From: Pocillopora verrucosa
Lineage: Eukaryota > Cnidaria > Anthozoa > Scleractinia > Pocilloporidae
Direction: 5' to 3'
DNA: 64,000 nt
NCBI RefSeq assembly: GCF_036669915.1
Contig: NC_089313.1
Span: 3,861,585 to 3,925,584 of the forward strand
This document shows positions 3,762-55,414 of this stretch, piece by piece. The notes beneath the pieces were generated by a model. That model was given only the letters and a program-made list of their open reading frames with translations. It had not been told where the DNA came from and did no database searches. The stretch's first letter is position 1. Each line of letters opens with the position of its first letter. A program made the position numbers and the translations under genes.

Positions 3762-6700
3762 ATGAATTTTAAAGTACAACGTACCTTCGCCTTCATAACG
3801 ATGGTCGTGTTAATCTGGAAACCAGTCTACATGAATCAAAATACCCCGAATGCACCGCGAAATGAATGTCTACCAAATGGAGCAAGCTTATCAGTTCTTG
3901 TCCATCCTCCGATGACCACTGACTATCGAGACCAAAACTTTAAAGGAATTTTGGGTGACTTTTTGGGCGAAATTATTGAGAAATGCTTCGTTGAACAGTG
4001 CCAAATATCCCCAGAATCTTTTAAAATAACGGTGTTTAACTCGACAGCGAGTTTTGTAGTAAGTATGAAAGAGAATAACTCGGATATTGCATTTCCAATC
4101 ATGCGACCTCTAAAGATGTTTTTGACTAGTGACGACTATAATGGGTCACGTTTTCGTTTTGTGGAGTTCATGAAAACCCCATGGTATTCTCTGATCCTGG
4201 ACGTGAAAAATTTCAATAGTAAAGCCAATTCAATCGTCTTCAAGACACTGGGTGAGAGTGTGTGGCCTATTGTCATCTTCACACTTCTTATAGCGGGCAT
4301 CTCAGGAATATGTGTGTGGGCTTTGGTAAGATATCAGTTATTAAATAAATGAATCCCTTCAGGCGGCTGGTACATCGACTGATAAGTCCGCAGCTGAGAT
4401 ATTGTCCGAGAGATACCGAATATTTGGCCAAGAAGCAAAGCTTTGAAGGCAAATGCGAAATTTCGGGGACAATCTCACAGCCGAAGAAATCATCAGCCGA
4501 CGTATTAGTAAACCAGAAGGCTTACATAAAGGTTTGTTTTGCTACTTCTTTGTTCATTTCGTAGCAGCATTTGTGATCAGCTTTTTAATTTCACAGTATA
4601 GCGAGTTCGTGAACTCTGGTTCTGGCTTTTCCCCCACTTGCTTTTGTTTCTTTTCGCTGGAAATAATTCCTGGACAGATTTTGACGTAGACGGGGGTTAT
4701 TTCGTGATAAATGTCCTGAGATTTTGCATCATGTGACATAAATTAGCCGATAGAATCGCACAAAAATTAAAGGGTGGGCTATGATCTATGATAATTATAG
4801 AGTTATCAGATTTTCTTTTTCCAGTTTAAGTATGAAAATTCTCTATATGGCTTTCTATTGCTGTGGGTGTTGAATGTAATCAAGGGACCTTTGAAGGCTT
4901 AAGAGTCGTGAGAGGCGATGATACACCACGTTAGCAAAAGGATCTCAAGGATGGGTATTGTTGTACAGAATTCCTGACAATTGGAAACTGAATTTAGTTT
5001 TTAGTACGTCTTCCGAGATTTACATTCTGTGAGGTGGATCCTTCAAATGAAGCGATTTGTATCCCTAAATTGTTAAAGTTTGGCCAAGTTTAATACAAAA
5101 CGAGAATAAACCGCAGTTTTTAAGTTTAACTTGAAATCTTAGACTTCCAAGTTTACAATTAACGTAAATCTACCCTAGGACGTTCAATTTTCGTTCTTTG
5201 GAAATGTTCCTAGCTAATTGCAAGGGTAGATATCTCTTTGATACAAAAAAGAGAATTACCAGGACAAAATTATATAAATGGTTTTCTCTGTTTCAGGAAA
5301 CTTATTTCAATGAAGAGGAATTCCCCCGTTCTTTTACAAAGGGGACATACGAGGGATTTTGGTGGGCCTTTGTCTCCATGACGACCGTAGGGTAAGATTT
5401 TTACAACTTTAAAAGGGTTTTTGGAATGGATGGGGGTACAAATAGAACACTAGAACTAGGTTTTTTCTCTTACGATCTCTCGGGTGTACAGGGTAAGGTA
5501 ACGCTTCATTGTTATATATTGACGAGAGTGAACTGGTTCAAGAAGAGATGAAAACTTGCAAGTGAGAAGCCGTTGTCTCGCCCTAATCTCCCCCTGTGCC
5601 AATTTCTTATCGTCAAATTTTCGCTGAGTAAGGAAAGAGAAACAGACTGTTTGAGTTCCAGGGAGACAAGGTATTTGCTGCTGCCTGATAAAAAATTAAA
5701 AAATGATAATAGATTTGTTACCATTTTCAACACAGTCTAAATTGAATTAGAACGACCTTAATTCATTGATCGCATTACAGGTACGGAGACAAAACCCCAA
5801 AGTTTGTTTTGGGCCGTATGTTTGGCGTGCTTTGGATCTTACTTGGCTTGGTTGTCATAGCAATGTTCACAGCCACAGCTACAAGTGCTTTCAGTATCGA
5901 TGTCGATTCCTTGGCACGGGTGACAGGACAAAGAGTAAACCAAAACACATTCTTTACTAGAAAAATATATAAATGTAACAGTCCTATCATTATGACGTAA
6001 AAACCCAATTGACCAGGTTGTAATTAGCTTGGTCTTGCACCTGATTCGCTGAGAGGATGCTAGATCGAGTTTTGATAGTCCTATACAATGTTGAAGTGAT
6101 TGGTTAAAAATAGGAAGTAAAGGTTTGCACTGCCAACGAAATTAATCGTGTTACTGCAACGTGACTTCATCGTCTCGATTGACTGTGAATAGGAGTGGTC
6201 GTGTTAGGCCTCTTTCGAGATTCTATCCGCCATGTGCCCCGACAGTGGTCGATGGGCGAACTACTCACAATACGAGGCACTTTCTCTCTCTGCTCTGATT
6301 ATTTATTACAATGAGCCCCTCGCAACTACACTATGCAGTTTTGGCCTTGTAGACGAAATTTTAACAGACGTGTAACGTGATCGCATGTACTGAGGATCGA
6401 TCAACACGATCGAGTCGCACCGTATTTTAAGATTAATTAAGATGGAAGATGAACCAAATACCAATCTTTTGCTCCCGGTGGCTTGACGAGACATTTAAGT
6501 GGTAAAACTGTTGTTGTGAAGAAGTAAAAGCAGCGAGGGAGATGAAGGTAAGTTAAGAAACGTGTGTTATTGATGTATTTTCATTTCCTTCTCAGATTGG
6601 CGTAATGATTAATACAACAGCGAGATTAGAAGCGAATAAACTAGGAGCCAAGGAGGTGAAAGGTGAGTCGGCAAGCTGGGTTATTTTTGTCTTAATATGC

Positions 6701-8924
6701 AAACAATAAGTTTTTAAAACCATTTTCGACAAGGGAGGAGGGGCCTCTCTTTCAGGACAATGCGCAGTAATAAAAAGGGAAACGAAAACGCAAACAAACA
6801 AAAAACCTCCCAAGCTATACTGAGTATCAGGTTATCACGAGATCCAAAGAATACAAATAAAAAAAATTTTTCAGTCTCCAATCAAGGAGAAAAGTAACAT
6901 CCATGGTTCAGGAAATCCCCAACAGCACCGGCACCGTAGTATAAATGGTTTTTGACCAGAAGTAAAACTTACTGGATCTTGTCGTCTGATCGTCTAGGTG
7001 GAAGAATTCTGAAAATGAAAGTGACTGACGTTTTGACAACCTGAGCGAAAGTCATCATCAGATTCAAGTTGGAAACTGTTTGCCATTGAAGGGCCGATTT
7101 TGGTTCGTGAAACTAATCGCTAGGTCAGTGATGCTGTTGGCTGCAATTAGCTGTACAAACCATGATAGCGGCAACTACTGTGAAGTTGAATCTGATAATA
7201 ACCCGCTCAGGTTGTCGTTTACAGAACAGTGGAGCTCCGATAACTCGGACTCGTAAGGGAAACAATAATAATGGTTCAAGTTAAGGGGTTTCGATTAATC
7301 GGGATTGGTGCTGAATTTCAATTTTCCTATTACAGGGTGTAATGACTAATAGAAAGTCATGTTTTTTCTATTCTTACACAATCTACATTCATATTCGCAC
7401 ATTAAGTTTGTTTTATGTGGGAGCTTTTTGATAAGAACGTTAAGTTTGGGAAGTTTAGCTAAATATAACACTTTTTCATAAATGTTTTCATGTTTGGTTC
7501 AATCGCGATCAAATTAAGATTGGAACACTTTGACGTTTGTTGACCGACGTTTCTAGTTAAATTTCGAGTTATCAGGGTACATTTGAGCCAAGGGAGAGTT
7601 AAATAGCTCGGGTCACGCAACCGAGTTCAATTAGCTGATACTAATTGACTTGATATATTGGTTCAAATCCTGAGGAAATCGCATTTTGTTCGAGTTAACG
7701 GGGTTCTACTGTACTGCTCTCTACTGGAAGATCAGAATACAAGTGATCACCACGAAACGAATTCCTTTTTAGAGTTTGCATCAAAACAAGCCTTGCTGAG
7801 TGCCCTTCGGAAAAATGAAATAGAAGGCATTTTCATGGACAAGTACATGGCTTCCTACATGCTCTACAAGCAGAATGACTCAAATTTCAAAGTATTTAAA
7901 GACTACGAAGAGAAAATTCCTTATGAACTGGCATATCGCGATAGCCCACTCTTCAGAGATGCATTTGAAAGGGAGACTTGCGCTCGTAATCTCCTTCAGA
8001 AAAGTTTTGTGGACAGCTACCTTATGAAGTACCTAAAGCCAGTTGTGGTAGGCATCATTCATACCTCAGTAATTTTTATGGTGGTTTAAGGCACGCCCAA
8101 TTTGAGTGCGGCATCTAAGGCAAAGAGCAAAGGATTCGTATCTGAAAATGTGAAAAGGTATTGATAAAATAAGCCAACGAGCCGATTGGCTCAACTGGCC
8201 GGACCTTATTCCGGTTTAAAGAAGTGTGAAGTGACCACCTAGGAGTATTGCTTCCCTTGGATGGTATTCTAGCCCATCGTTACCTCTCTACATTTCTTCA
8301 GGCCTCCCTGGCATTTCGCCGCTACCTGCTTATACTCCCGGATAGAGGGGGGCACTGTGAGAACAAAGCCTGTCTTGCCTAAAAACACAACACAATGACC
8401 CAGCCAGGTCTCGAACCCAGATCTCTCGAACCAGAGTCTATCGGACAGTCCGTCAGGCCATGCACTGCATCCACCGACGCGTCTACCGTTACTCTTGAAA
8501 TAACTGCATATTTGTTTTTCAGGCGTATAACGCCGATAGCGACGCCATTAGCCCGTTCTCTGGTGAAAATCCGTGCACTCGCAAGTTCCTGTTAATCATC
8601 ATGGGCGTGTTCCTTGGTCTTTTATCCATTGGGCTTGTGGCAGAAGTTGTGATCAGAATCATCAAGAGGAGAAACAAAAAAGTGAAGAACGTTGCAGGTA
8701 TTAGCAGAAACTAGAACGAAACATTTTTTTGGTTGTTCAATATAATCCCTTTTTTTGCAAGAGAAAAACGAACTTCCTCTGCATACATACATAAAGGCAA
8801 AAAAAACTTAAACATATATGTGACCTTTATTTCCTCTCGAATGAGTTTTATAATTTGAGAGTAGCTACATAGAATTAGCTAATATCTTCGAGACATAAAA
8901 ACGTTAACAAAAACAAAACAATGT

Positions 8925-8957
<33 letters not shown>

Positions 8958-9025
8958 CTAACTGCAGACAGTACTGTTTCGGCCTTCTGGGCCTCATCAG
9001 TGCAGTGCTGATGCTAGGATGGGGG

Positions 9026-9065
<40 letters not shown>

Positions 9066-9870
9066 ATTTGAAGGTTGAACTAATTAATAAGACAACTTTT
9101 CTGTGACTCTGAGTTTCCCGCTTACGCGATCATATATATGTATATATACACATATATATATTTGAAAAAATATATATATATATATTTGAAAATATATATT
9201 GAATATATATACCTTTTCTCTTCTCATCTCTCCTAGATGGAAGAGAAAAGGTACATATATTCAATATGTATTTTCAAATTGCAACGTTTTTGAAAATGGA
9301 TATATATATATCTATTAAAAAATGTATGTAAATAAATTATATGTATGCATGTACATATATATGTATATATGTGTCTAATATGTATATGCAATGTATATAT
9401 ATGTGTAAACGTATATTTGTGTATATATATGTATGTATCTACTATAGCTTAGTCCATTGGTAGTGGATCTACCCATGTACTACCTGTGGATCTACCTATG
9501 GTCCATTTTTCCTGACCGGTAGGGACTGTAGGCTCAACAGATCTTAATGGTTATCCTACTTATCACTGAGAAACAGCCTCACTTAATGATTCGATGTATT
9601 TTTAGGTACAATGTGGTTCCATCTGTTGGTCAGACAATATATGAGAAGCTGAATTTATTCTGAATCATTCAAATCCTTTCCTTTCCTTTTCCAGGTGAAA
9701 TCGACTTGAAAGAAGTGAAAGTGCATAATTCCAAAGGACACCTTAAAGATATTGAAGATAAAGTGAGTCAACTGGTGAACGAAGTCGGTAAACTGCAAGC
9801 GCAGCTGGCAGCTATGTCTTCTTCAGTAAACGGCACTCAGTTTGGGGGACAGCACACTCCCCACTTTTAG
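3762..9870 (+). CDS. Glutamate-receptor-like channel with K+ filter, gene 1
   Basis: Exons 3762-4325, 5297-5391, 5781-5934, 6596-6662, 7773-8047, 8523-8697 and 9695-9870 join in frame to 501 codons; every junction is GT-AG with matching phase. Order: signal peptide (about 1-28), S1 lobe (30-160), M1 (166-188), re-entrant pore loop with WWAFVSMTTVGYGD (G220-Y221-G222), pore helix ending FTATATSAF (about 228-262, at the place of SYTANLAAF in glutamate receptors), S2 lobe (263-395), M4 (about 407-430) and a leucine-rich coiled coil (460-484). This is the topology of bacterial GluR0 and rotifer AvGluR1: a ligand-binding clamshell gating a potassium pore at the plasma membrane, with no amino-terminal domain (usual animal iGluRs are about 900 residues). 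In S1 the ligand-carboxylate Arg position appears replaced by Phe/Leu; in S2 the acidic residue (MDKY) is kept. Hence the ligand is uncertain. A paralogue follows at 14.7 kb. Exons 4 and 7 are short and rest on phase and paralogy. Confidence 0.9.
7227..7711. mobile_element. Pogo/Tigger-like non-autonomous DNA element
   Basis: The left end CAGTGGAGCTCCGATAACTC and the right end, read inverted, CAGTAGAACCCCGTTAACTC resemble the inverted ends of pogo/Tigger transposons. The roughly 485-bp interior has no transposase frame and contains further GAGTTA-type subrepeats. It lies in intron 4 of the first channel gene, and its right end lengthens the open frame ahead of exon 5. The flanking TA duplication is not clean. 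Confidence 0.55.
8165..8480 (-). mobile_element. tRNA-derived SINE, family 1
   Basis: Read on the - strand, a tRNA-like head with a box-B motif (GGGTTCGAGACC) is followed by TGTGTTGTGTTTTTAGGCAAGAC and the phrase GGGAGTATAA, also found in the repeat at 23560-23806. A Pol III promoter head plus a shared body is the SINE layout. It lies in intron 5 of channel gene 1. Ends are approximate. Confidence 0.6.
8929..9057. repeat. (TA)n microsatellites around a ribozyme motif
   Basis: Two alternating TA tracts, about 8929-8956 and 9029-9057, enclose about 75 bp of unique sequence that holds the hammerhead motif. More TA-rich sequence continues to about 9440. It lies in intron 6 of channel gene 1. Confidence 0.85.
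8961..9006 (-). ncRNA. Type I hammerhead ribozyme motif
   Basis: On the - strand the invariant core reads CTGATGA (9000-8994), then a helix II hairpin GGCC-CAGAA-GGCC (8993-8981), GAAA (8980-8977), a very short helix III CAG-TA-CTG (8976-8969), TC as the cleavage dinucleotide (8968-8967), and helix I, where ACTGCA (9006-9001) pairs with TGCAGT (8966-8961). All core bases of the self-cleaving hammerhead are present. The very short helix III is typical of hammerheads from retroelements (Penelope-like elements, retrozymes), which may act as dimers. It is antisense to the host gene, in intron 6. Activity is inferred. Confidence 0.75.
9185..9278. repeat. Long imperfect hairpin
   Basis: Arms 9185-9222 and 9241-9278 are inverted copies with a few mismatches around an 18-base loop. 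The arms begin TTTGAAAATATATATT and end with CCTTTTCTCTT / AAGAGAAAAGG. The size would suit a small foldback element or a hairpin RNA within the channel-gene intron. Nothing beyond pairing supports a function. Confidence 0.6.
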
Positions 9871-12800
9871 GATGAAAGCAAGGAAGACTGAACTCCCACA
9901 CTATTCTCCACTCATAAAGCGACCCTGAAATTGAGTTTTCTTTATGCAGTACTGCACTTGAAGAACGCTTACCGACGACCGGCAAGACCGTTCTTATATT
10001 TCCTTTAAGTATGAAATTCGTATAGAGTGAAAAAGATAGTTATCGTTGGAAATTCAACTTTACTTGGCTTAATTACCAATGTAGCTGTTATCCATCCTCG
10101 AAGAGACATCTCTAGCTATCCCCATTGGACTCAGTTCTTGATGTCCTTGGGATAAAAGTTGCATCACACTATCATCGATGTACGGGATGGATACACAAGA
10201 ACTTACATTCAGAGAACAGCCCCGAAATAAGAGGAAAATATTCTATATCGTAAAGGAGTCCAAAAGAAACCCCTCTGTATAAAATGATCATTAAGGGACC
10301 TTATGATCTCTTGATTCTTTACGAATCTTAACCCTTTAACTCTCAAGATCTCATTTACTGTCTGACATACAATTCTTATGATGTCAATTCGGAGAATTTG
10401 TTATTGGATCAACTGATAATCCCCTAATTGATATTTTACTCTATTCTAATCACCTCTATGCTTCATATTGTATTGATATTGTAAGGAGAAATTCCCTCTT
10501 GGTCACTCATGGGAGGTAAAGGGTTAACGTTACTCTAAATATATCGCATTGGTAATATATATTATTGTGAATAGGATTTTCTGTAGCTCATTGGTAAATA
10601 TCTAGATCTCGAAGATTAAAGGCAATTTAGTCAGTTTTTAGACCAGTAAAGAAAGCGCCGTGAAGACATACTGGTCCTTGGTAATGAAAAAAAACCTTTC
10701 TGTCTCAGTGTTTCACTTTCGCCTCAGGCTTCTCATACAAATAGTCATTTCTAAACGACAAAATTTGTTTAGCTCTCAGAACGTGAAAAAGGCCTCAATA
10801 ATTTGTTAATACCTTGTAAAAGAAGCGTAATAAAAAGATGAAACTATAGTAAAATTTAAGGCCATGAACTACGTGAAGATAGCTGCTCACAAAATGTATG
10901 CCATTCGCTCTGACGCTCGAAGCGTCAGCTTAAAAACTCTTCACGGTGGCCAATTTACGTTATCAACTCAGTTGATAATACCAAGCACCGTAGTTTCTCT
11001 TTACCACCTTTATTCATTTGTGATTGAAATACTTTGAAAAGCGATATTTTCAAGTTGGCCATCTTCTGTGCTCGTCTGTGCTCAACCAACCTTGTTCTCT
11101 TTCTTTCATTCTCACCTGTTCCCTTCCAGAAAGCCAGGCTACTTAGCCCTTATTGAAATGTAATTTTGCAGATAAAAAAAATAACGTGACGCACCCCCCT
11201 ATATTCCTACCTTCATGGACAGCTGGATATTTAAGAAAAGTCAAAATTGTTTAGATGAACATGTCATTCACTTAAGGCGAGAATGGGACGAAAGTTAGTC
11301 CTCCTCGATAGATCGAACTCAGACCTGCGGATAAGATCATAAAGGCATCACACATCTATCACGAACGTGAAACAAAGAAAAGTCTTTCGGGGAACTCAAA
11401 TTTTTTCTTGGCCTCAAACAACTAGCTGATAAATAACACCTTTTTTTTCGACGATTGAGCTAAAAATTACCATCTTTTTCATATTTTAAAAGTTTTTATA
11501 ATTTTTTAATCCAAGTTTAACTTTATCTTAACTTTAGGTTTAACTCCATGGTGACTGTCATCTTAGGTAAACTTTTAAGTAGGAGTTTCACTTTTATTGC
11601 GATAACCTGAAACAACAAAATACATCGATGAGCGATTTTTTAATTTCTACCTAAAGCTGCCATAAAGGACAGCTGGAAAACGAAAAGTGGATTTTTTTTG
11701 CATACCCTATATGAGGTTTGACGCTAAGATAATATACCCTAAAGGGACTGTTATATCCCGATCCAATTAGCACCTAGGAAGATAATTATGTAAATGCTTT
11801 TTGGTGAACATTTTTATAATAATCACTATTTCCCCTTCAATTAAAGGCAGTGAATTCAGTGCTGGTGCAAGATCATCGAGCACTGTGATAAATAACACAA
11901 AAGTCGTTTGAAGTAAGTATTTATAACTTTATCACGCGAATTAAGCGCTGAAAGTGACTAAATTCAGTTTTTCTATCGTTTCTACATCGTTTGTTGTGCG
12001 ACATTGAAAAACTTTGACGATATAAACTGTGAGTGAATCAACGTTACTTTGGTGAATAACAACGTGCATCAAATTGCTGAGGTCATGAGCAGTTGAACGA
12101 GCTCGACTAAAGTTATGTTTAGCTTCCATAAGTCTCACTTTCAGCATGTTTCTTCTCCAGATAAATCCGATCAACCGAAAGTTTTAGGAAGCGAGAAACG
12201 CTTGATTTTTATGGTTAAGTTAAGATATGCGCAGCTTTTATGATTTTATTTTAATTGATGATAACGTTTATTATTAGGGAAGACCTTAATATCTATCTGA
12301 TTATAGAGTTATAGTTCCAGATGCTTTGATAGCATGATAAGGCATAACTTTCTCCAAGTAGTTTCAAGAAATTATACAAATGGCCTTTTAATCTGAAATG
12401 AAAATGAAGAATTATATACTGTCTTCTTCATACAACAGCTGATAATCAGAGCTTTAGAGGTTAACAAAAAATAGAAGGGGAGGTCAAATTCTGTATTAAA
12501 AGCGAAAAACTATTACGTGTAGCTAGAAGGGTATATAGAATATCGAGATTAGTCTAGATTTTCCTCAGCGCAATCTTTACTTTTGATCGTCTTTAGTTGA
12601 AGGCTTATAAAAATGAAAGTTTCAACTTGTCGCAAAAATTATGTTCAGGTGCTCTGCTGATAAAGTAAGAAGCAGGCATCTACTATTCAACGCTACGAAA
12701 CAGACAATTATTTGAGGCTCTACAGTCTTCAGAGAACATACAAGGTATCGCGTAAGTACAAAAATCAAGTTCTTTAGAGTCACTTTCAGCATTACATAGG

Positions 12801-14720
12801 GTTGTATTTAACCCCTCTGCACTTGACTTCTCGCACACATCACATTATTTAAAGATTCAGTATAAACAAACCTACACGAACGCAATTGAAAATGATGACT
12901 TTTCTATTTTTGGTGATGATTAAATTATATTGCTTATCCATAACCTCTGTTATTTGCATTCATAGTGAAATAAAACACCAAAATAATAACAAAACTTAAA
13001 AAATATAATGAATATGGTTAAACATGGACGAATTCGATACAACGAGTTCGAAATGTTTACGGTTTAATTTTTCACGATAGTCATAGCATTAACTTTAACG
13101 TTATTTCTTAAGAATTAACATCTTGGACTTCTTAAACTGAGGAAAAGCTTTGATGAAAACCACTCAGCAGCAAACATTTCCCGATTAACTTTTTCTAAGA
13201 TCGGCTGTTTTGTCATTCACTGATAACCCACAGACACGTACCAATACAAGTATTGTTTCAAAAACACAGGCTATCGGGACTCCCTAGAAAAGTGTTTGAT
13301 TAACTTCAATGTGAACAGCTTAGTTTATCAAAACAGAGTCTGCCAGTTTCTCACGAAAATAGAACTTTCTAGAGCCCGAAAACATAATAGATGATTGAAT
13401 TTTCTCAACACAAGTCTACCGGACGGTTGAATTATTTAAATGTATGAATATATTTAACAACGCATGCTATGAAGATGATTATCTGTTTTGGTACGGTTAC
13501 CATAAAACACAAATTTTGACGCAGTATTTGACGTTAAATGGTTTCTTTTTATCATCAAAAGAAAAAACCTTGAAATAAATTTACAAACTTTAAGAAAACT
13601 CCTATTTTAAGTCGTCACAAAGGCAGAAAATAAGCCTTTGCTCTTTTTTGCCACTGCAAATATACTCTCGATTGCAAAAACTTTGACACTTAAAAAGAGT
13701 GACATTTCAATGAAACCCAACGGCTTTTAAGGGAAATTTTCGCACGGTTACAAGATCAGTGTTAAATTATTCTTCTCTCATTGCAAATCTTTGTTTACGT
13801 TGATTGTTTTCTTTCATGAAAGCGGGTAGGGCTTCTATCGTTTACCACGTGCAGCTAATGATGCAACTATAGTTTATAGTGGTTATCACATAAATGCCCA
13901 TAAAGCAGTTCGGCCTCATCGTTAGCTTCTTACGCTTTTTAGATGTCAACGCTTTTGCAATCGAGTTTATACTGATTAAAGCTCGCAGCTTAAGATCTAG
14001 GTCTACTCGATGGGAAAGTTATTTATTCATGTTCTGTGGCTTGAGACTTTTAGCCTCTCACCATTTCCTTATTGGAGTACATAACCGCTGATAGTACAAA
14101 AATCCTTACTGGCATTTCATTGGCAATCTGAAACAATCCAACACCGAAAAAAATGAGGAATATGCGCTGATATGAAGACTAACAGACGCAACTAGTTTTC
14201 TGTGTTTCTGTTGCTTCCGAATCACTTCTTCCAATTTGGATACCACTCAGTCCTTGTGTGGTAAATTCGGTTCAATGAGCAACACTAAACCTATAACTTC
14301 TACCAAATAAAATTGTATGAAACTACTGATGCCTAATGCTCAAAACAAAGAAGGGGATGGGGTCGCCTCTTGCGTGATGTGAAGGGATTGGTGTGCCGCC
14401 GACACCTTGAAATCCTTGAAAACCCCCTGAAAATTTTTATCATTTCACTTCTTTGCCAAAGAAAAATATGGTCATGGGTTTGTGCTTATTAACCTCGTGG
14501 AGCCCCGCTTAACATATTCATGAATTTCATAGGCAGCATCGTGCCAATGACATTACAGGGTCTTATAAACGGAGGGGGAGGGAGGCTAATGAATGCTCTG
14601 CTTACTACCTCTTTTGAACATCGTTACAAAGAAGTTAGTTTTCTGTAAATTTTATCTTTCAGAAAGCAGAATTTCAAAGGTGTTGTTGCTAGCCACGATA
14701 AAGGAAGCGCTTTGATAAAG
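9871..14720. other. Intergenic region between the paralogues
   Basis: AT-rich, no supportable ORF or RNA gene. It includes the 3' flank of gene 1 (an AATAAA near 10827-10832 is a possible poly(A) signal), a TTAA-ended MITE at 10328-10526 and the promoter of gene 2. The ORFs at 11941-12174 and 13894-14091 look like chance. Confidence 0.6.
10328..10526. mobile_element. TTAA-ended MITE, family B
   Basis: Ends TTAACCCTTTAACTC and GGGAGGTAAAGGGTTAA are inverted. The interior carries CTCCTTACTGTC, TTGGATCAACT and TATTGTATTGATATTGTAAGGAG, shared with copies at 18899-19108, 37744-37952, 38393-38608 and the fragment at 50061-50160. TTAA flanks with a CCCTTT start are what piggyBac-related non-autonomous elements show. 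No coding capacity. Confidence 0.75.
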
Positions 14721-17700
14721 ATGATGTTCGCGGCCTGCGTAACAATAACTTTACTGCTCTATAGACCAGCACTTACGAACACGATAGGAAGTCGTGATCG
14801 ATCTGTGGGATGTCCGCATTCTCGTCAACAATTTACAGTATCAATTCTTGTGATTCCCCCATATACCATCATATCTGATTCAGGCGAATTAATAGGCATA
14901 CTAGGAGATTTTTTCGATGATATCATCCACAGATGTCTTCTTAGATTTTGTGGTTTGTCTAAGGATGCCTTCAACATGACTTTTATTAACTCGAGCAAAG
15001 AATTCCAAATGATCCTACAGAACAATATGACGGATTTCGCCTTGCCAGTATCCAAGCCAATGCAGTTGCTTCTCCGTCCTGACGACCATGATGCACAGCC
15101 ACTTATGATGGTTGAACAAATCATAAGTTCTCCCGGCTATTCGCTGATAATGGACGTAGAAAATGTGAATGTCAGAGCCAACAAAGCCGCACTTATCAAG
15201 TTATACACAGAATCTTGGCCTATTACAATATTTGCATTTATGGTCACTGGAATCTCTGGAATGGTCATATGGATCCTGGTAAGTATCATCTATTTCCCAA
15301 AATATCTAATTAAGTTGCAATTTTGCTCGGCCATTCAAAAAACCGCGATATATCAATTATTTTTACAGAAGAACTATGATTTGCAAAAAAAACAAACTTT
15401 ATCTCATTTAAAGGCAAGCCACTATACAAAACCGAATTGAAATATATGGTGGATAATGTAGAAAAGCCTTTGCCTTTCTTTCCTCACCTCTTCCTAGATA
15501 GGAAATAACAATGGGGGAACTTTAAAACGTATAAAGAGTAACAAGGTCAGACCACAACACAGGGAGCTACTACATTATTCTTTGCGAGCAATGTTTCGGT
15601 CCTTTAACGTCCCCTGCTAACCAGTACAGTCCTCGCCTACGTTTATCGTCCTCTCCTGCAAAGACTAGAGTGTCTAACCATTTGCAGATGTCATAAAAAT
15701 AGCAGATACTGTCAGCTATTTCAAGATCTTGAGTGTTGGTCCCGCCTGGGTCTTGAACCCTACATCTTCCGCACGACAATCAACCCGGTGCTCTATAAAA
15801 TAAGATAACCAAGTGCAGTTATGAAGATAGTGTCTAACTTTCTTTCAGGAGACGCACTTCAACGATGAGGAATTCCCCCGTTCATTTGTAAAGGGATCCT
15901 ATGAAGGCTTTTGGTGGGCCTTTGTTACCATGACAACAGTTGGGTAAAATAAACGTCCATTTTAGAGGGTTTTGTACGACACAGGCAGTTAATGTCATCA
16001 ACTTTGCAAAGCATTTCATGATCATTTTGAACCCAATATCCTCTCTAAATCCAATCATCAATTCAAAAGGTCCAAAAGGGTTGGCTACCGACACTTTTGG
16101 GTTATATCTACAAAAATTGCACAAGAAGTTTAGAATTGGTTTTGAGCGGTTTCTTGAGGAGTTCAAGGGGAGATGTGTGGAAAGCAAAACTAGTGGGTTT
16201 CTAAAACACCTCAGGGATTGTGACGAAATTCTGGAGGTTACTTGATATTAATACGACCAACCTTTCTAGGTAAGGTGACAGGGAACGTCTGGTTTAGTTT
16301 TTATCTTTACTGAAGCTTACCTCCATTCTGAGAATATAATGTTGTAAATTTGATTTGTCTTTGCTCTACTTCAGTTACGGAGATAAAACTCCCAAATTTA
16401 TTTTGGGTCGCGTATTTGGAGTGTTCTGGATTATGTTTGGTCTGATCGTTGTTGCGGTCTTTACAGCTACAGCCACCAGTGCACTTAGTACAAGCATAGA
16501 TAGCTTCGTAGGAGTTGAGGGAAATAAGGTATGTGTGTGTGTGAAATAGTTTTTTGTCTCTCATTTTTGTTACCGTCTTCAGAGAAATGTGGGCATGTTG
16601 GACCGTCGATGGTGCTTCATTACCGAACCCTTTACGTCTTCGTATCATATTTTTCATACCGATCTCTATAATTCTCCAGCGGTATTGATAAGGAAAATTT
16701 TTTTCACAGGCGATTCTTTTCTTAATGATCATTTCCCTTATTCTCATGGCCTTAAGCTTGGATACTGTAGGTTGAAATTGGATGCTAACCCTTAAAGCCC
16801 CGATATCAACATGTATGTTCTCGTCATCATTCTCCATATGTTTCTTATTTTATTAGTGATATTGTTAGGAGAAATTAGATGCTGGTCACTATTGGGGTTA
16901 ACCTGAATTGACACCAAACGAATTAAGCTGATAGACATCGAGATATAGCGCCAATAGAATCGCAAAATGTAAGCATGAGGATCAATTATTAAAACACAGC
17001 GGCAGGTCGGTAAAAAACGGATCTACGAAGCAGAATTAAATTGAGGCGAAATGTGCCAATGAAGGCGCACACAAACGCATCAAGGGTAGTTGACCATTTG
17101 CTGGATACTAGCGACTCGATATCTTTTGATTATTTCGCCTGAGATTAGCAACTAAGGAGCAGAGAGGTCGCGGTTCTCCGTTGATAGCTTGACTCAACAA
17201 TTTATTCTGTCTCTAAATCGTAAGAAAAACGATTAAACATTCATTTACCATCACTTTAACAAATAGATTTCATGTTGCTGCAAGTCTGTTCAGTAATAGA
17301 TCGCAGATTACTTAAAATGTACTTAGGACAAAAAAATAGCACTCGAGGCGCAGCCGGGTGTATGTGTCACTGATGTTCTAACCACGTTCTGGCGTCGTCT
17401 GTGATCTATTACTAAACTGACCCATGGCAACAAGGAAATTATCTGTTTGATATAACAAAGAAGGGAAATGTCGTTAATGTTGACGTCACCTCCGCGTCTT
17501 TCCTCTAATAGACTTTTGGCAAGAACTAATCAAAATGAGTGTGTTACCAGTAAAAGACCTTAGACTCTAACCCTAAGTCTTTATGACTGAGGAAATTAGG
17601 AAGAGAAACAAGGACGTAACGTGTTCTTCTACTTTCCATTTGGTTTTCAGATTGGTGTGTTGAATAGCACGTCGGCAGAGTTTGAGGCCAGAAAAAAAGG

Positions 17701-19760
17701 AGCATTTGTCGAGAGTAAGCCTTAAAAAAATTCAGGCCATTTCAATCCTACATATAAGAAAAAATCGGACCACACTCTTAAATTGATATACAGCCCAGTT
17801 ATATAATCAAAACCTTGGGGGTAAAGTGTGTATTGAAATAGCTATCTTACACTTTACAAAACCTGACGGCAATATTTCGTGTTCACGCTAATCAGCAACG
17901 ACCGCATACAACACAAAAACCTTTCCGAGGCAAAACCACAAGCGCGCAAAGCCTCTGGGGTGTGGATGATCTTTTAAATGAATTTAGCTGTTTCGTCCCC
18001 TCGAACTAGTTTGAGGGACAGTTCACTTTGATATACCAACATGAAGTTCTCCTCCTCTTACAGAACAAATTCTCTCCTTTTTAAAGGAATTACGGCTTTT
18101 GAGTGAAACATTCTAAAGGCGACATAATAAGTAACCCCCCCCCCTTCCCACCTCCTATAAACTCACAAATTTTCATAGATTGGTCTATATTCATTGCCTG
18201 GTGCCTGGGGGGAGTCAGAGGATTTTGGTTGGGTTTAAATAAAATTTACCTGACCTGATACCCCCTGTAGTCAACTCAGCTATGTAATAATCTAAGAATC
18301 CCCTCGTATTGGAAGTCAGTTTTTATAGTCCTCTTATATACGACTAATTCCCCTCCGTTTCCCCTTAAAATCATGCGACCATCCCCCCCCCCCTCCCCTG
18401 CAAAAAAGAAACAACCCTTCCGTCCCTCCAGCGATGAAAAATCCAAACCACTAAAATTCATCCACAATACAGCTGATAAACGTTTTCCTAATAGGTTTTT
18501 CGTCAATTGAAGAAATGTTCTCCAGCCTACGGAGTGGTGAAATAGACGGTGTTCTCATGGACAAGTTTAGAAGCCCAGAGGTTCTGCGCGCAACGAAAGA
18601 TAGGAATTTCAGAGTGTTTTCTGGCTACGATGCAAACGTCCCATACTACCTTGCAGTACACAACAGTTTGAGGAGCCTGTTTGAAGGGGCGTCATGCATC
18701 AAAAACAGGATTAACAACCAGGATTTGGAAAACCTGTTTATCAAATATCTCATGCCAGTGGCGGTAATAACACAACTCCTTACTGAGACATGATTGTTTT
18801 TGTTTATTTGTTTTGCTTGTCTCATGTTTTTTTTTTCGAGCCATGATAACCTGGACCTATTCTAATAGGCTATTTCCAAGTTCTAAGCGTTCTTACTTTT
18901 AACCCTTTAACTCCCAGATCAAATTTGTACTTCTCCTTACTGTCAATCGTACAATTCTTATAATATTAGTTCAGAGAATTTAGAGTTGGATCAACTAATT
19001 ATCCCCAAATTGATATTTTTCTTTATTCCCATCACTTAGATGGTTGATATTGTATTGATATTGTAAGGAGAAATTCTCTCTTGGTCACTCATGGGAGTTA
19101 AAGGGTTAAAATATGAACCATAAGTTTTTTTCATATTATCTTACTTCCAGGTGTACAATAGTGAAAAAGACTCCTACGCTGTGTTTTCTGGCCACTCACC
19201 TGAGACGAATAGATTTTTGGTCATCGTCGTGTGTGTGTTCCTGGGTTTCGCTTTCGTTGGCATCACAGCTGAAGTCATTTATAAGACTGTGAGGAAAGGA
19301 AATTTGAAAGTGAGAAGTAGGGAAGGTATGAATTCTTAATGATCTTCCTCACTGTGGATATACTTAACAGTTTGCTTAATTAAGTTGGCCTAGTGTCAAC
19401 GGATTGAAAGGATTCGCATTCAAAACGGGGAAAGGAGACAGTAAGGTGTGTCCATGGGTGCACACGCAAAAAAAGAGTGATGCACTTTCCATTTGGACGG
19501 ATAGCTCGTTTTTTTTTATTCTTTATTTTTTTGGCGTGTTAATAACATCGAACTACAGAGGTATTTTATTTTTCTCGCAGTTCCTAGCTTGGGTGTCACA
19601 TGTGGGTTAAGTTCATTGGTTGGTCTCATCCTCTGAGGGTTTTTCTCCGGGTTCTCCGGCTTTCCTCTCCCCACAAAAACCAACTTTCCAAATTTCGATT
19701 CGACCTGGAAACAGTGGACAAGAAAAGCCACATCGTGGAATGTCCAGTGATAAATTATTA

Positions 19761-19792
<32 letters not shown>

Positions 19793-20102
19793 GTTCAAGA
19801 GGTTATGATCTCTTGTATTATTATGATTACCACAGATTGGTTGAGTAAGTACGGAAATCAAACAGGTGGGGATTTGATGCTTTTCTTGTTTGTTTTTTTT
19901 TTTATTTGCAATGAACGTGATAAAAAATTTCCTTTAAACAGACCGGGAAAACGGAAATTATTTGAGGGAGGTTGGCGAGCACAGTGCTAGTAAACCTAAC
20001 TTGGCAAATGTGGAGAACAAGTTAAGACAACTGGTCGAAGAGGTCAGCAAACTACAAGAGCAAATTTCAGCCAAAGGACGGCGAAGCACAACTCACATGT
20101 GA
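14721..20102 (+). CDS. Glutamate-receptor-like channel with K+ filter, gene 2
   Basis: Exons 14721-15278, 15849-15943, 16375-16528, 17651-17714, 18495-18763, 19151-19325 and 19942-20102 join to 491 codons; the first in-frame ATG is 14721, directly before a hydrophobic signal sequence. Exons 2, 3 and 6 have the same lengths (95, 154, 175 nt) and all seven the same phases as gene 1, so this is a tandem duplicate. Domains in order: signal peptide, S1, M1 (about 164-186), pore loop with WWAFVTMTTVGYGD (G218-Y219-G220), helix ending FTATATSAL, S2 with GEIDGVLMDKF, M4 in exon 6, and a coiled coil (about 459-483) with regular Leu/Val heptads. The expected product is a ligand-gated K+ channel subunit, possibly co-assembling with gene 1. 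S1 differs from gene 1 (LPVSKPMQLLL) and again lacks an Arg at the canonical place. The Cys before M4 in gene 1 (ENPC) is absent here (SPETN). AATAAA at 20394-20399 is a likely poly(A) signal. Confidence 0.9.
15570..15800 (-). mobile_element. tRNA-derived SINE, family 2
   Basis: The - strand carries a head with box-B-like GGGTTCAAGACCC preceded by GTGCGGAAGATGTA, then a body of about 180 bp that is unlike SINE family 1. It lies in intron 1 of channel gene 2. Ends are approximate and only one copy is in the window, so the SINE call rests on the box-B motif. Confidence 0.45.
16782..16912. mobile_element. MITE fragment, TTAA family C
   Basis: ATTGGATGCTAACCCTTAAAG on the left and AGGAGAAATTAGATGCTGGTCACT..GGGGTTAACC on the right match the ends of the family at 21732-21940 and 62165-62368. 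The interior is shortened. It lies in intron 3 of channel gene 2. Confidence 0.5.
17286..17421. repeat. Foldback repeat
   Basis: GTTCAGTAATAGATCGCAGA on the left pairs with TCTGTGATCTATTACTAAAC on the right, giving a 135-bp inverted-repeat element in intron 3 of channel gene 2. It has no coding capacity and is probably a MITE. Confidence 0.6.
18899..19108. mobile_element. TTAA-ended MITE, family B
   Basis: TTAACCCTTTAACTCCC ... GGGAGTTAAAGGGTTAA with the same interior as the copy at 10328-10526. It lies in intron 5 of channel gene 2. Confidence 0.8.
19752..19793. repeat. (TTA)n microsatellite
   Basis: About 12 ATT/TTA units, one interrupted by C, in intron 6 of channel gene 2. Polar low-complexity ORFs on both strands here are artefacts of the repeat. 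Confidence 0.9.
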
Positions 20103-28862: not shown

Positions 28863-31800
28863 TTACTCTGTTTGCATGGGTTCTTCCACTTGCTGCTGCT
28901 GCTGATGCGCACCATGACTGCTGGCCTGCAGGTCGCCTCCCAACTGTGTAGAACCTCCAGAGGCCTGGTTCACCACGTCTCCGCCTTGCGTTTGCAATGC
29001 TTGCTGGTCAGCAGCTCCAGCAGCAACTTGAGCCTGAATTAGTTGCTGATCAGCGGTAGCTATCAGTAAATGAGGATGCGACTGCGCAGCCGCCATGGCA
29101 GCTAGGATCTCCGCTGGCACGGTGATACCCAGAGTATCGGATCCCTCTACAGTCACATGCGCTGCCTGCATGGCTTCACCGATGGCTGCTTGAACGTCAG
29201 CTGTAGTGACTGCCGTGCCGTCGGCCACCTCCATAATATGCACTTGTCCGGTAGGAATGCCCACAGCTTCGCCAACCGATACCTCCGGCCCAGCGGTTGG
29301 TATGTCGACAACCTGAGGCATGGTGGTTACTACCGTCTCGACAACGGATTGGCCCACATCACTGGCGGAGATGCCGGCGCTGACGGCAGCTTGTGTGACG
29401 GGATCCACCAACATGGAAGCTTGGACAGCGTGACCATCTTGCAAGTGCTGCAAAGAAATAACTTTTTTATTTATTCACTTTTTTCCATGTTCTATCTCAC
29501 CTTAAACGATAATCATTGAAAGCTCAAGATCCATGTCAGTATAGATCAAGGGTGCACCTACCCCTCCCCTAACCCAAAATTGAACCTATCTTGTTCTCAT
29601 TTGGCTATTGTTGGGTGAGGGGAGGGGAGGGGAGGGGAAGGTGCCAGTTTCTCAGATACTGACATTTATCCGAATTTAAATATTTTCTGCTGATCTGAAG
29701 AATGAAGCAACACCTCATTTGTGTAAGTATGATACCTAAAAACCAGCAGCAACATCATTTTTGCTTCGTTCTTGAAAATACTAAGGCATGAACAACAGAG
29801 GATTTTTGACTTGAAATGAATTCATTGAATGGTACCAGAATTCAAAAAGGTAAGTCTGTTTCCTAAGTACAAACCTGCTGCATAACTGCATCCTCTTCGC
29901 TATGTGTCGTCTCCTCAACGGCTACAACCCGAGGAGTGTCGTCTCCTTCAGCCGCCGCCGCAACTACTGCTTCACTGACGGCAACCAATGCCTCAGCCAA
30001 CTGAACGTCCGCATCTGTACCCAGATGACTGATGTTTACGGTAGACATGGTCTGTTACGATAAAAAAACGAGACAAGCGTGGTTACATACACCAAACTTC
30101 CATGAGCCGATGAGAACTCAAAGATACAAAGTATGTCCACATGACCGATTATAAAACATTCTTGAATGGTTCCAGTCAGATAGACATAAAGAATTGTTTC
30201 ATATTTTGTTGGCTAAGTTAGCACATCAGTTGTTTGTTTGTCTGTTCGTTCTGATGCCCGGCAACAGATGAAACTGCCCGTTAAAAAGCACCGCGAGAAA
30301 TTACACACATGGCAAGAAACGGAATCAATATCAGTGTCTGGACCCCTGCGCACCTACCCCTCCCATAACCCAACAACAGCCAACTGATAATAAGCTAAGG
30401 TTGATGTTGGGTTAGGGGAGGGTTATTTGCGCAGTTCCTCAGATACTGACGCTAATCAAACAATAGCCCCCGCTTTCGATTATTTCACCTGTTTAATAAC
30501 CCGGGCGAAAGGCTGCAATAATAAGAGTTGAGAGTAAGTGATAAACAAGGTTATCGCGTGTTCCCCCGGCAACACAAGAGGGATATTGTACTGATTAACC
30601 AATAGAAAATGTGGTCTAGAGCTTTTATGAAATGAATACAAAACATTTCAGTTTTATTTCCTCTTTACCGTAAAATATAGAGAATTGATTTAATGAACTA
30701 AAGTCAATGTACCTGTTCCACAGTCGTGGTCCCTTGTGACTGTTCATCGATGACCTCTGTGTCAGACTGATCTTCCTTTTTGCCCCGCACTCTGACTCGT
30801 CCATCGCCCTTGTTATGCACCTTCATGTGATACCGGAGAGAAGCCTTGCGGGAAAAATCCTTGTCGCAAACTTCACACTTGAAAGGCTTCTCGCCCGTGT
30901 GAATCCGGAGATGATTGTTAAAATGGCTCCTGTGGTTGAACTCTCGACCACATTCGTCGCATTTAAAAGGCCGTTCACCTAAAAGAAGATAAATCGAAGT
31001 TGTTAGACGGAGGCGGATCCAGACGACTTTGATTCAGTAATTAGAGAATTTTTGTCACACTACAGCTTTGAAAAGCAAAAGATATAGTTCAACACAAGTA
31101 AATTCTAAAGACTTCATATTTAGTGATTACTTGCTGTCCAGTCACTGCATGGATGTTGGTGCCAACCAAGTTTTAAAATTAATGTCTGATGAGAGGGACC
31201 CCCAGAACCATGACTACCCCCTCCTGGATCCGCCAATTTTAGAGGATTGAATATAGGCAAAACGTTGTTCAAAAACACAAAGAAAACAAAATAGAGAAAA
31301 CTTTCGAAGAATTTAGTCCTGATCCAGCCATGTAAAGATCCGAAATTAATAACCTCATAGAAGCAGACACTTTTTCCCTACATGTGTGTCTGTTTTTCCT
31401 GGCCACCGGATGTGAGATGTTCGACCGAATAACCTAAACAATGTCTCTTGCTATGGAGCATCGAAAATTTAAAGAAAATTTCCTTCTAGTACCTGTGTGT
31501 GTTCGAATGTGCTCCTTCAACGTGCTAAACCGAGTGAACATCTTCTCGCATTCGCCACATTTGTACGGTTTGTCCTCGCTGTGCACGGGCATGTGCACTT
31601 TGAGGTCAGTAGAGCGTGCAAAACGCCTGCCGCACTCGGTGCATTCGAACGGCTTCTCCCCTGAGAAAAAAATTCAAACAAGCAAAGTTAGTGCGCTTTT
31701 CCACTTTTTCACTAAAATCATAGCAATCACAACTACCTATCAGAGCGAAGGAAAATGTGTAGGAAAACACGGGTAACAAAGTACTTTTTAATTTCATTGG

Positions 31801-34800
31801 CTGAGAAAATAGCGCTGGTATTAAGGGTAACCCTGGATTTCTTTGGTTTTGCTTTACCACGCTCTGTGATTGGTCTAGAAAACTCGCGCTACCATCTCAA
31901 CTAATCAAATTTAAAACTACGCCCAATCCCAACCTGGTTCTTAACGTTTTTCAACGCTGAGTTCTCATTGGTTGATAATGATGTTAATAATAACAATAAT
32001 TGTTCTGATTGGTAGTTGCGATTACTTTGGTTTTAGTTTTTCGACCCTCAATTGAAAAAAATTCCTACGTGGAGCAAAACAAAAGAAATAAAAAAATACA
32101 TAAACTTTCATGATGAAAATTGCTCTACGGTGAAAGCGAAGAACATGTCGATAACGTATGTTCCAATCCTCTGTTGAAATGTAGCCTTGTATCTTGTAAA
32201 TCAATAGCCTTAACGCTCCTCGGTGTTTCTCCTTACCAGAATGCACAATGGCATGACGCTTAAAGGTGATTGTAGAGATGAACTCCTTGTGACAGATGTC
32301 ACACTGGAAAGGTTTCACCCCAGTGTGCCTTCCCATGTGAGACTGCAGCTCTAGTTGGGTGCGGAACGTCTTGTCGCACTCATCGCATTTAAACGGTTTG
32401 TCTCCGGTGTGCACGGCCTTCACAAGAAAATAAAGAGACCAGACATTATCTCAAACCTCTTGAAAGTCAACAATAGCAATTCAGTGATACATCGAAACAA
32501 TTCCACACCCAAGAACGTGGCCTGAGTTTGAGATTTCCCAGGTAAAATTACAGTTCTACCCTGAAAGTGACCTAAGCAAAAGATAAATTTGTACATAGAA
32601 AAATTGCAGTTGATACATCAATAGAGATAAAATTACAGGGATGCCGCTTATGTTAAGATATCCAGGGTAAAATTACAGTCTAGGGACAGAATCTCCTATC
32701 ATTTGCAGGCTGGTAATGAAACAAGGCCGCAACCCACGAACTTGGCTTAGCTTCGAAGTTAAAAAGGAAGTTCGAGACACTGCATTTCAGGCTTAAGATT
32801 TATCAACGCCATTTGCTTGCTGTGGGAAAAAATGGTATGCAAATTGGGTATTCTTTTGGCACAGTGGACAGTACACAGCAAAGTGATCGACTGTTGTTTA
32901 CCTGATGAGACTTGAGCCCTGTTTGAATAGCAAAGCCTTTACCACACACATCGCATATGTAAGGTTTCTCTCCAGTATGAGTTCTCATGTGGTCTCGCAG
33001 CCGAGCGGGGCGTGTGAACTGCTTCGGACACATCTCACACTTGTATGGTTTGTCACCGCTGTGAGTGAACTTATGCTTCACCAAGTCAAATGACTGGATG
33101 CAGGCAAAATCGCACTGATCACACTTGAAAGGTTTTTCACCTGAAAAAAACAAAGTATCAACGCAAATTTTATGGCGATGGACCCCGTGAGAAGCTACGG
33201 AAAACTGAACTAGACCTAAACGTGAAATCAGCAGTTTACGGTCAAGTTACCTGAAAGGTCTTCTCGCCTAAGGCCAGAGTTATGTGGCGATTGATACAGA
33301 TTTCTTAACTTGACTTAACTTAATTGTTTCCGCTGTGAACACTCAGGTGACATACATATACAGTTGGGAAAATGACTTTCAGGCAACTTACTAGTTCCCC
33401 ACTGGACAATTGCTATCCTTCACAATGTAGTGACATACACGGAGATGGTATTTCTTACCTGTGTGAATGCGGTAATGTCGTTTAAGATCATCATAACGAA
33501 TAAAAGCCTTTTCGCACTGATCACATTTGTGTGGCTTTTCGCCAGTGTGCCTGAATGCATGGCGGGACAACTCGGCTGGTGTCTTGAACGCCTTATCACA
33601 GCCTTCCACTTCACACTTGTGGGGCTTCTCTTCCTGATGCACTCTGCGATGAACCCTACCAATCAAAAAGTATGGCACACATATAGTGGTAGAGGTTTCA
33701 ATAATTTTTCCCATAAGTGCTGTTGATGGTTTGATGGGCTGCTGCACCCAAAAAGGGGGACATAAGCCCCCACCTTCTCCAAGGGGCTCTGGGGGCATGC
33801 TAAAGAAGGCAGTAAGAAGTTTTATAGGAGGTGGTAGATAACTGGCTTTAATTGCAACCCTTGTAAGAGGCAGTATGGTGGTGTGCTACTCAGGATCAAT
33901 GGGACACCAGGTCCACAGGGGTTTCAAAATGTTTCGAATAGGGTGTCAGACTCGGCAAAAGTAGGTGACTATGAAAAGCTCATTCAGGACCAAAAGGTAA
34001 TTATTTTAACCAGAGCAACTGGCGACATGTTATCGAGTTGCTAATGTATTTCATGCAGTCACCAGCTTGTTTTGAAATCTCTGAGTCAAGAAGTCTGGGT
34101 TAGAGACCAAACCAGCTTATTTTATTGTTTTCATGGGCAACACAGTTAGCTATGGCGGTTCCTCTTCTTGGTATGTGTGAATACTAGAACACTGTCAAAG
34201 ACCCCTGTACGCATGCTTGAAGGTTAACGAAGAGGAGAACAAATTTACTCACATATATGTGCCAAATGTGTAACAACGATTAAACAATACTAACCTCAAA
34301 GATCCTGGGTTGTTAAAGGCCTTACCACATGCCTCATGATCACAGATGTAAGGTCTGTCCTCAGAATGGGACAGAACATGGGATCGCAGAGAGCTGGGGT
34401 TGTTGAATGCCTTGTCACAATACTCACATTCATATGGCTTCTCTCCTAGATTGTACATCAGTAATGAATACATAATAGACAAGTTACCTTTAGTACAAAC
34501 ATACATAAATGTACCTTGTATAAAATGCAATAATTACTAATAATGAATTATGTGGGTGCTCCATAGGGGGCCTGAGTGTAAAAGTCAGGTTTTTTTTATC
34601 TTCAGTCACAAATGACCATTGAGGCTCTAAAGTGCAAGTGTAAGTTTTTCATGTGTAAACTGAAGACAATGTGAAAACACTGTGTAAAAGTGAAAACAAT
34701 CCTACGTACACTGCAAATTTCACCCAAAAAAAATTTTAATTTTCATGTGGCATAATGATATTAGTATGAAAACCATACAAAGGCTGCCCCTAGATTTTAG

Positions 34801-44032: not shown

Positions 44033-44139
44033 ACAACTATTTACCTCTGTGTCGATGAATAGCAGTGGATATTTACCTCACCGCTTTAAGTCTCGGTAAA
44101 TATCCACTACTAGCCATATCCAATTCGGTAAATAGTTGT
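44033..44139. mobile_element. Foldback MITE at the end of the tail-repeat gene
   Basis: ACAACTATTTACC ... GGTAAATAGTTGT termini with an inner inverted pair AGTGGATATTTACC / GGTAAATATCCACT. A second copy is at 45370-45471, in the same place relative to the neighbouring duplicated exon. Its outermost base supplies part of the stop codon of the 348-codon model. Confidence 0.75.
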
Positions 44140-54668: not shown

Positions 54669-55414
54669 TCGTGACTAGTGAGCCGCATAACTCAGGTAAT
54701 CTCCATACTTGCACCGTTGCACTTATGTCCTCTTATTGCAGATATGTCCTCTGACGTAATGTGATACAGTGGCCAATCATATCCTGCGATCTATCGAGCG
54801 ACACGCGGCTTGGGACTGGTTAAGAGACTCCGTTGTGGTTATGTCTTCAAGCGAAAGCACTCATTCAAGGGGGTCGGGATAAGTGGAAAATTTGACCAGT
54901 ATTTTCCGGTAACTGATCTGAGGAAAACATGCTGTTTGCATGATCACTGCGAACCGGATCATTGGCCTCTCATATTGCTTTCCTTGAAGTTCTATCGTTC
55001 GTTGACGCAGAGTGATCGCATCGTTTTTATAACCTAAACTTGGAAGAACAATTTGTTGCGCGTGAATAACAAAGCGACTTTCGACCAAAGGATGCATTAT
55101 TGTTCACGTTTTATTTGCAGCCTTGCTTTATTTACAGTCTTCATTGCTCGACTTGCGACGTCAATGACAACATTTTAGCCACAAGCTAAGACAAAAGCAC
55201 AATGTGGCGTCATATCACAATTGCTTTATTTTCTTTAATAGTTGAAAATCATAGATTATGGTTCGTCGACATAAAATTATATATTTTTGACACTTCACCT
55301 GATCTGCCGGAGGTGAGATCGACTGAGAAGTCCAAGTTGTGATTATTTGTCTGCGTCACGATGTCTTCCTTCAATCACAGAAGTTTGGCCTTCAGTTGTT
55401 TATTTTATTTATTT
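54669..55414. other. Intergenic stretch between two repeat arrays
   Basis: No gene, RNA or repeat recognised. ORFs at 54810-55037 (+) and 54861-55097 (-) overlap on opposite strands and look like chance. Confidence 0.5.

Follow-up and report, generated by a model that had tools for sequence, protein, structure and literature searches.

Candidate GluR0-like ligand-gated K+ channel genes in tandem, and their expanded family, in the coral Pocillopora verrucosa

Does an animal genome encode receptors that join a glutamate-receptor-like binding clamshell to the complete selectivity filter of a potassium channel, and from where would such receptors descend? This question is raised by a 64,000-nucleotide stretch of the genome of the stony coral Pocillopora verrucosa (NC_089313.1, positions 3,861,585 to 3,925,584; the window), in which a first-pass annotation had placed two tandem genes, here called gene 1 and gene 2, resembling ionotropic glutamate receptors (iGluRs) with a K+ filter. 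Having followed up both genes across the genome and among known receptors and channels, we consider it probable (roughly 0.72) that they encode subunits of a GluR0-like ligand-gated K+ channel and are members of a family of about 80 loci.

The two genes, with the 501 and 491 codons and the end coordinates of the annotation, hold up as models of their transcripts drawn from genomic sequence: each comprises seven exons that splice to a frame open throughout, all 12 introns are bounded by GT-AG, and the intron phases (0,2,0,1,0,1) are identical between the genes (Table 1). The predicted proteins are 44% identical, and tblastn revealed no third copy within the window. Between the genes, nonsynonymous divergence (dN) is 0.13 in the pore, 0.60 in lobe S1 and 0.54 in lobe S2, and synonymous differences are saturated overall (pS 0.77), with a synonymous divergence (dS) of ~2 in S2. 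The saturated synonymous sites and the pore dN of 0.13 mark the duplication as old and the pore as strongly constrained.

Exon 2 ends in FWWAFV(S/T)MTTVG and exon 3 starts with YGDKTP in both genes, the intron between them splitting the codon of the filter glycine (FWWAFVSMTTVG in gene 1 and FWWAFVTMTTVG in gene 2, each continued by YGDKTP); the spliced exons thus carry the K+ filter FWWAFV(S/T)MTTVGYGD that had been claimed. Above the curated cut-offs, both products match the Pfam domains Ion_trans_2 (E = 8e-13 in both) and Lig_chan (E = 3e-8 and 8e-9), and binding-protein lobes flank M1-pore-M3 in each, as judged from exon order, BLAST collinearity and a match of the structure model to 1ii5. 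An exon for M4 and one for a C-terminal helix follow in both genes (exons 6 and 7), and the annotated order S1-M1-pore-M2-S2-M4 agrees with the exon models. The M3 motif, FTATATSA(F/L)S, is a degenerate counterpart of the SYTANLAAF of animal iGluRs, which is itself absent. A binding lobe, not a voltage sensor with its helices S1-S4, precedes M1, and the PVP hinge of voltage-gated K+ (Kv) channels is absent from both sequences; LPVP occurs in three of eight Kv frames of the same genome (L001, L006 and L007), the others being variants or frame ends. Neither gene model contains an amino-terminal domain, S1 starting ~35-45 residues past the start methionine in the same exon.

When the pair was compared by BLASTP with two cyanobacterial GluR0-type proteins (L009 and L010), E values ranged from 5e-24 to 5e-18. 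S2 alone matched L010 (E = 7e-5 and 5e-5), with a weak match of gene 1 S2 to L009 (E = 0.001), and a profile comparison of S2 with S2 (hhalign) gave a probability of 92.6 (E = 4.7e-7). Searched without the pore, S1 and S2 of gene 2 matched bacterial amino-acid-binding proteins in the PDB (E = 1.5e-5 and 3e-5). Masking the filter of gene 2 left no K+ channel among 42 rows. A bilobal extracellular fold of the gene products is supported by structure models, with a match to 1ii5 across both lobes (VIA). The pair also matched L011 (E = 4e-24), a GluR0-type protein encoded on a contig of 264 kb that IMG/VR lists as viral. This receptor of 337 residues (L011 1608-2618) carries the K+ filter and has an S1 of the canonical amino-acid-binding type, and the start of its S2 strikingly resembles that of genes 1 and 2, with the segment IGV.NTTA.IEA in common. 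Scanning genome contigs with the pair (79 stretches) and searching plasmids yielded no relative; scans of viral contigs with GluR0-type queries returned nothing or L011 again, and scans with A2 and A5 returned L011 and otherwise K+-channel-like matches mostly confined to the pore.

What the first-pass annotation missed is the family of pore exons around the pair. In the window's own assembly (353 Mb, 52 contigs), an exon-level search gave 88 matches, or 57 pore loci after seven Kv-type matches were set aside. A pattern describing how exon 2 ends (WWxxxxhTThG followed by GT, with h a hydrophobic residue) had 85 matches and its reversed control none; the corresponding pattern for an unsplit filter had three matches versus one in the control. 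Low pore dN against saturated pS, together with 85 genome matches against none reversed, argues that the filter-bearing exons are not a product of chance. Removal of K+ channels (three unsplit-filter matches and one Kv gene, L163, found among 20 sampled) left 81 loci on nine contigs (C2, 27; C6, 18; C13, 12; C8, 6; C11, 5; C12, 5; C3, 3; C9, 3; C1, 2), with filter letters TTVG in 75 and TTLG in 6. At 65 loci the exon around the pattern match was read as well, at 53 by a script demanding 100 bases on each side and at 12 of the other 28 separately, the remaining 16 being counted from the pattern. The removed L163 (C8:13338130-13338430) is an apparent Kv exon in which GT immediately follows the filter glycine codon, where the family has its intron.

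Genes 1 and 2 are members of this family, which comprises about 80 pore-exon loci and has expanded in tandem. Arrays hold 23 pore exons at C2 3.146-3.516 Mb and 15 at C6 20.96-21.06 Mb (examples are L113, L114, L138-L155 and L157). The window pair and the C2 array are ~0.35 Mb apart, and a further copy sits at C2:3.845 Mb. L113 and L114, 177 kb apart, have identical pore-exon peptides, which suggests recent duplication. In each of 26 exon-2 copies the intron interrupts the filter codon after one and the same base, and YGD after AG opens exon 3 in 28 of 28; L127, L129 and L134, which repeat L111, L106 and L120, are not part of this set. Among 20 more copies, exon 3 begins with YGD in all 20 and exon 2 was located in 18 (TTVG in 16). 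While the family-wide count is a count of pore exons, the S1 and S2 lobes were seen in part of the members. Among sampled members less than 90% alike, mean pairwise identity was 0.24 in S1 (17 rows), 0.60 in the pore exon (18 rows), 0.43 in the M3 exon (21 rows) and 0.21 in S2 (13 rows). With a conserved filter and fast-diverging ligand lobes, as in chemoreceptor families, the family looks like a large set of chemical sensors for different ligands.

What such sensors might bind can be approached through two residues. In GluR0 and iGluRs, an S1 arginine anchors the glutamate alpha-carboxylate and an acidic S2 residue holds the ligand amine. The arginine aligns with Asp in both window genes (in a five-way alignment that is uncertain at this position), and inspection of the family S1 alignment by eye shows no arginine fixed in this region; for these reasons classical glutamate binding is not expected, and the ligand of the pair is probably a different one. 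The S2 acid is invariant in the five-way alignment (Asp316 of gene 1) and acidic in 13 of 13 family rows including the window genes (12 Asp and 1 Glu; a script pattern caught eight of these rows and the rest were read by eye). Judging from these positions, family members probably sense different small molecules, perhaps amines.

If expressed as modelled, each subunit would carry a signal peptide, an extracellular S1+S2 clamshell without an amino-terminal domain, and a re-entrant loop, placed between M1 and M3, that holds the complete K+ filter and would enter from the cytoplasm as in iGluRs; a fourth membrane helix would lead to a C-terminal helix, probably a cytoplasmic coiled coil. The channel would be a tetramer, whose assembly the C-terminal helix may aid, there being no amino-terminal domain. 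A small ligand would close the clamshell, pull on M3 and open a K+-selective path. Since clamshell closure would, on this anatomy, open a K+ pore, ligand binding would silence the cell by hyperpolarisation or shunt it.

Several observations weigh against the assignment to a GluR0-like ligand-gated channel. S1 alone has no significant match to GluR0 (best E = 0.015), and S2 of gene 2 has none to L009. The models were built from alignments of just four and five sequences; these include GluR0-type proteins, for which reason the models may borrow the GluR0 fold. Their mean predicted local distance difference test (pLDDT) scores are 47.6 and 59.3, with the pore, M4 and much of the tail below 50 in the better model, and the first model (gene 2) was poor, so that we treat its structural matches as supporting only. 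Beyond the window, M4 is clear by hydropathy only in L132, L137 having two ambiguous frames; a hidden Markov model search of the family for M4 recovered two seed rows and a weak match to L137 (E = 0.007). The filter end is altered in L147 (TKVG) and, through a changed splice end, in L143, and in each of L116, L117 and L118 of the C6 array S1 is broken into three separate frame pieces, so that these three look like pseudogenes. Part of the family is therefore probably non-functional, and working genes would number fewer than 81 if such damage is typical. The remaining objections concern Kv channels. The best 60 of 369 PDB rows for gene 1 are all K+ channels, with Kv1 and Shaker at the top; with the filter masked, the top solved match of gene 1 is still Kv1.3 (E = 0.017), ahead of AtGLR3.4 (0.11) and GluR0 (0.38); and L163 shares the GT after the filter codon. 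These could mean that an iGluR or binding-protein gene took over a Kv pore, and the pore helix with filter (FWWAxVxMTTVGYGD) indeed scores 76-87 against the coral's own Kv channels and 68-72 against GluR0. M1 with the linker, and M3, are nevertheless nearer to GluR0 and lack the Kv PVP motif, and no K+ channel stands among the 42 rows for gene 2 with its filter masked. Trees placed the family with GluR0 at support 97/80 in a first tree (46 rows after short and identical sequences were dropped) and 99/91 in a family tree (25 distinct of 27 family rows, with 12 of 38 other viral-contig channel frames). The approximately unbiased (AU) test rejected a clade of family plus Kv in the first tree (p = 0.004) but not in the family tree (p = 0.145), and long-branch warnings were raised for L011 in both. 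Taking these together, we judge a transplanted Kv pore improbable.

A different doubt concerns gating. The subunits might be constitutive K+ leak channels or silent partners whose clamshell no longer binds ligand, as the Asp at the S1 anchor, the lack of a fixed arginine across the family and the fast divergence of the lobes would allow; yet the amine-site acid is kept in every S2 row, and in genes 1 and 2 the frames of both lobes are open and dN stays below a synonymous divergence that has reached saturation, and we hold a loss of ligand binding to be unlikely. Still less would we credit convergence, in which an ordinary animal iGluR re-evolved a K+ filter. It would account for the eukaryote-style M4, the overall iGluR topology and the animal iGluRs that make up the Foldseek rows listed for the models, but it must explain a full TTVGYGD together with a GluR0-like linker and binding-protein-like S2, gene models without an amino-terminal domain, and the absence of animal iGluRs from the 27 rows of the S1+S2 PDB search; we regard it as very improbable. 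Horizontal transfer, whereby a bacterial GluR0-type gene entered animals and acquired introns, M4 and a tail before expanding, is a question of origin and compatible with ligand-gated K+ channel function. The nearest relatives found are prokaryote-type proteins, among them L011, which has the S2 segment in common with the pair and in one tree, weakly resolved, branches within the family, and AvGluR1, the rotifer receptor, has been called atypical and more like bacterial iGluRs (PMC12332018 / PMC12226733). Set against these, the family is intron-rich, diverged and spread over nine contigs, L011 is a long branch, nearer eukaryotic relatives may exist beyond the sequences compared, and M4 is present, while prokaryotic iGluRs are described as having no amino-terminal domain, M4 or carboxy-terminal domain (PMC12551409). 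Transfer appears to us somewhat unlikely. For the GluR0-like receptor itself we consider possible, at less than even odds, a history in which a K+ receptor lineage of GluR0 grade, with M4 and without an amino-terminal domain, was retained by animals or gained by them very early, and here expanded into a chemoreceptor superfamily of about 80 loci that would sense diverse ligands by inhibition: an inhibitory counterpart of the arthropod ionotropic receptors (IRs), intermediate between GluR0 and neuronal receptors.

The initial interpretation is upheld in part. By sequence the build is GluR0-like, the S1 arginine anchor aligns with an Asp, and structure prediction gave the bilobal 1ii5-like fold at low confidence. 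A decades-old proposal holds that glutamate receptors arose when a K+ pore was inserted into a binding protein, and the family of about 80 loci, with K+ filter and M4 and without an amino-terminal domain, would supply natural intermediates that make the order of steps testable. It looks as though the family would quieten cells, not excite them, which points to an entire class of inhibitory chemoreceptors in an animal with poorly understood chemical senses. Genes of this kind may pass as Kv channels in annotations, the filter being what sequence searches chiefly pick up.

Table 1. Positions in the window of the exons of genes 1 and 2 and of other features
Feature	Position	Strand	Content	Basis
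Gene 1	3762-9870	+	501 codons, 7 exons	gene model
Gene 1 exon 1	3762-4325	+	hydrophobic N-terminus (probable signal peptide, by eye), S1 lobe, M1	open frame, GT donor; S1 block pLDDT 52-78
Gene 1 exon 2	5297-5391	+	M1-pore linker, pore helix, first half of filter ending EFPRSFTKGTYEGFWWAFVSMTTVG	AG/GT junctions; glycine codon split GG/G
Gene 1 exon 3	5781-5934	+	YGDKTP, M3 with FTATATSA	gene model; GluR0 alignment
Gene 1 exon 4	6596-6662	+	S2 start, IGVMINTTARLEANKLGAKEVK	gene model; aligns with GluR0 RDTTAVDWA segment
Gene 1 exon 5	7773-8047	+	remaining S2, conserved Asp316 (GIFMDK)	gene model; residue acidic across family
Gene 1 exon 6	8523-8697	+	M4	gene model; helix 402-443, low-confidence part of model
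Gene 1 exon 7	9695-9870	+	C-terminal helix, probable coiled coil, stop	helix 458-486 (low confidence); leucine-zipper-like Pfam matches below cut-off
Gene 2	14721-20102	+	491 codons, 7 exons	gene model
Gene 2 exon 1	14721-15278	+	probable signal peptide, S1 lobe, M1	gene model
Gene 2 exon 2	15849-15943	+	linker, pore helix, first half of filter	gene model; genome pattern match at C2:3877496
Gene 2 exon 3	16375-16528	+	YGDKTP, M3	gene model
Gene 2 exon 4	17651-17714	+	S2 start	gene model
Gene 2 exon 5	18495-18763	+	remaining S2 with GVLMDK	gene model
Gene 2 exon 6	19151-19325	+	M4	gene model
Gene 2 exon 7	19942-20102	+	C-terminal helix, stop	gene model
Repeat-like stretch	28863-29474		resembles the 171-bp repeat region	
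Zinc-finger-like frames	32022-33885	-	several open frames, C2H2 zinc-finger repeats	by appearance
171-bp tandem repeat	44259-45117	-	five copies, 93% alike, giving a 57-residue protein repeat	inside open frame 44139-45158
Receptor-like frame	51128-52087	-	319-residue one-exon open frame, rhodopsin-type G-protein-coupled receptor	by appearance
Long tandem repeats	55411-57933		imperfect, ~105 bp, several blocks	

Among known systems, the pair is closest in plan to GluR0 of Synechocystis (slr1257) and other Group 1 receptors, with which it has in common the S1-M1-pore-M3-S2 order, TTVGYGD, linker spacing and modelled ligand-core fold, and from which it differs in having M4, a C-terminal helix, introns, no S1 arginine and a family of about 80 loci. 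Ger et al. (2010, PMC2950845) reported a glutamate-binding domain joined to a K+ filter (Group 1) in bacteria alone, to the extent that could be determined. An animal case is AvGluR1 of a rotifer (PMC12332018, PMC12226733), said to have the architecture of eukaryotic iGluRs. Compared by description, AvGluR1 resembles the pair in its animal genome, iGluR topology and K+ filter. To our knowledge, surviving animal K+-filter receptors come only from the rotifer, and we know of no large AvGluR1-type family there. The words "potassium" and "GluR0" are absent from the main text of a metazoan receptor survey to which, according to the authors' response, several corals and an anemone had been added (PMC6307864), and "potassium" is absent from a 2024 review of sensory receptors (PMC11526382). 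Searches of openly licensed papers turned up no title or abstract on a cnidarian K+-filter receptor family, and a description may exist elsewhere. The K+-filter iGluR is thus a known kind, and an animal family of about 80 loci with M4 and without an amino-terminal domain is, as far as we have seen, new.

Animal iGluRs (AMPA, kainate, delta, NMDA and epsilon) share the clamshell and M4 with the pair and make up the Foldseek rows listed for it; unlike them, the pair carries a K+ filter where they have the Q/R/N-type loop, lacks an amino-terminal domain, and reads FTATATSA instead of SYTANLAAF. Kv channels have the letters of the pore helix and filter in common with it, whereas the clamshell lobes, the missing voltage sensor and PVP, and a pore expected to be oriented the opposite way set the pair apart. 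Arthropod IRs are an expanded, iGluR-derived family with diverse lobes that have often lost the glutamate-anchoring residues. The coral family is likewise expanded and diverse in its lobes, but IRs have no K+ filter and are thought to depolarise, whereas the coral receptors carry the filter.
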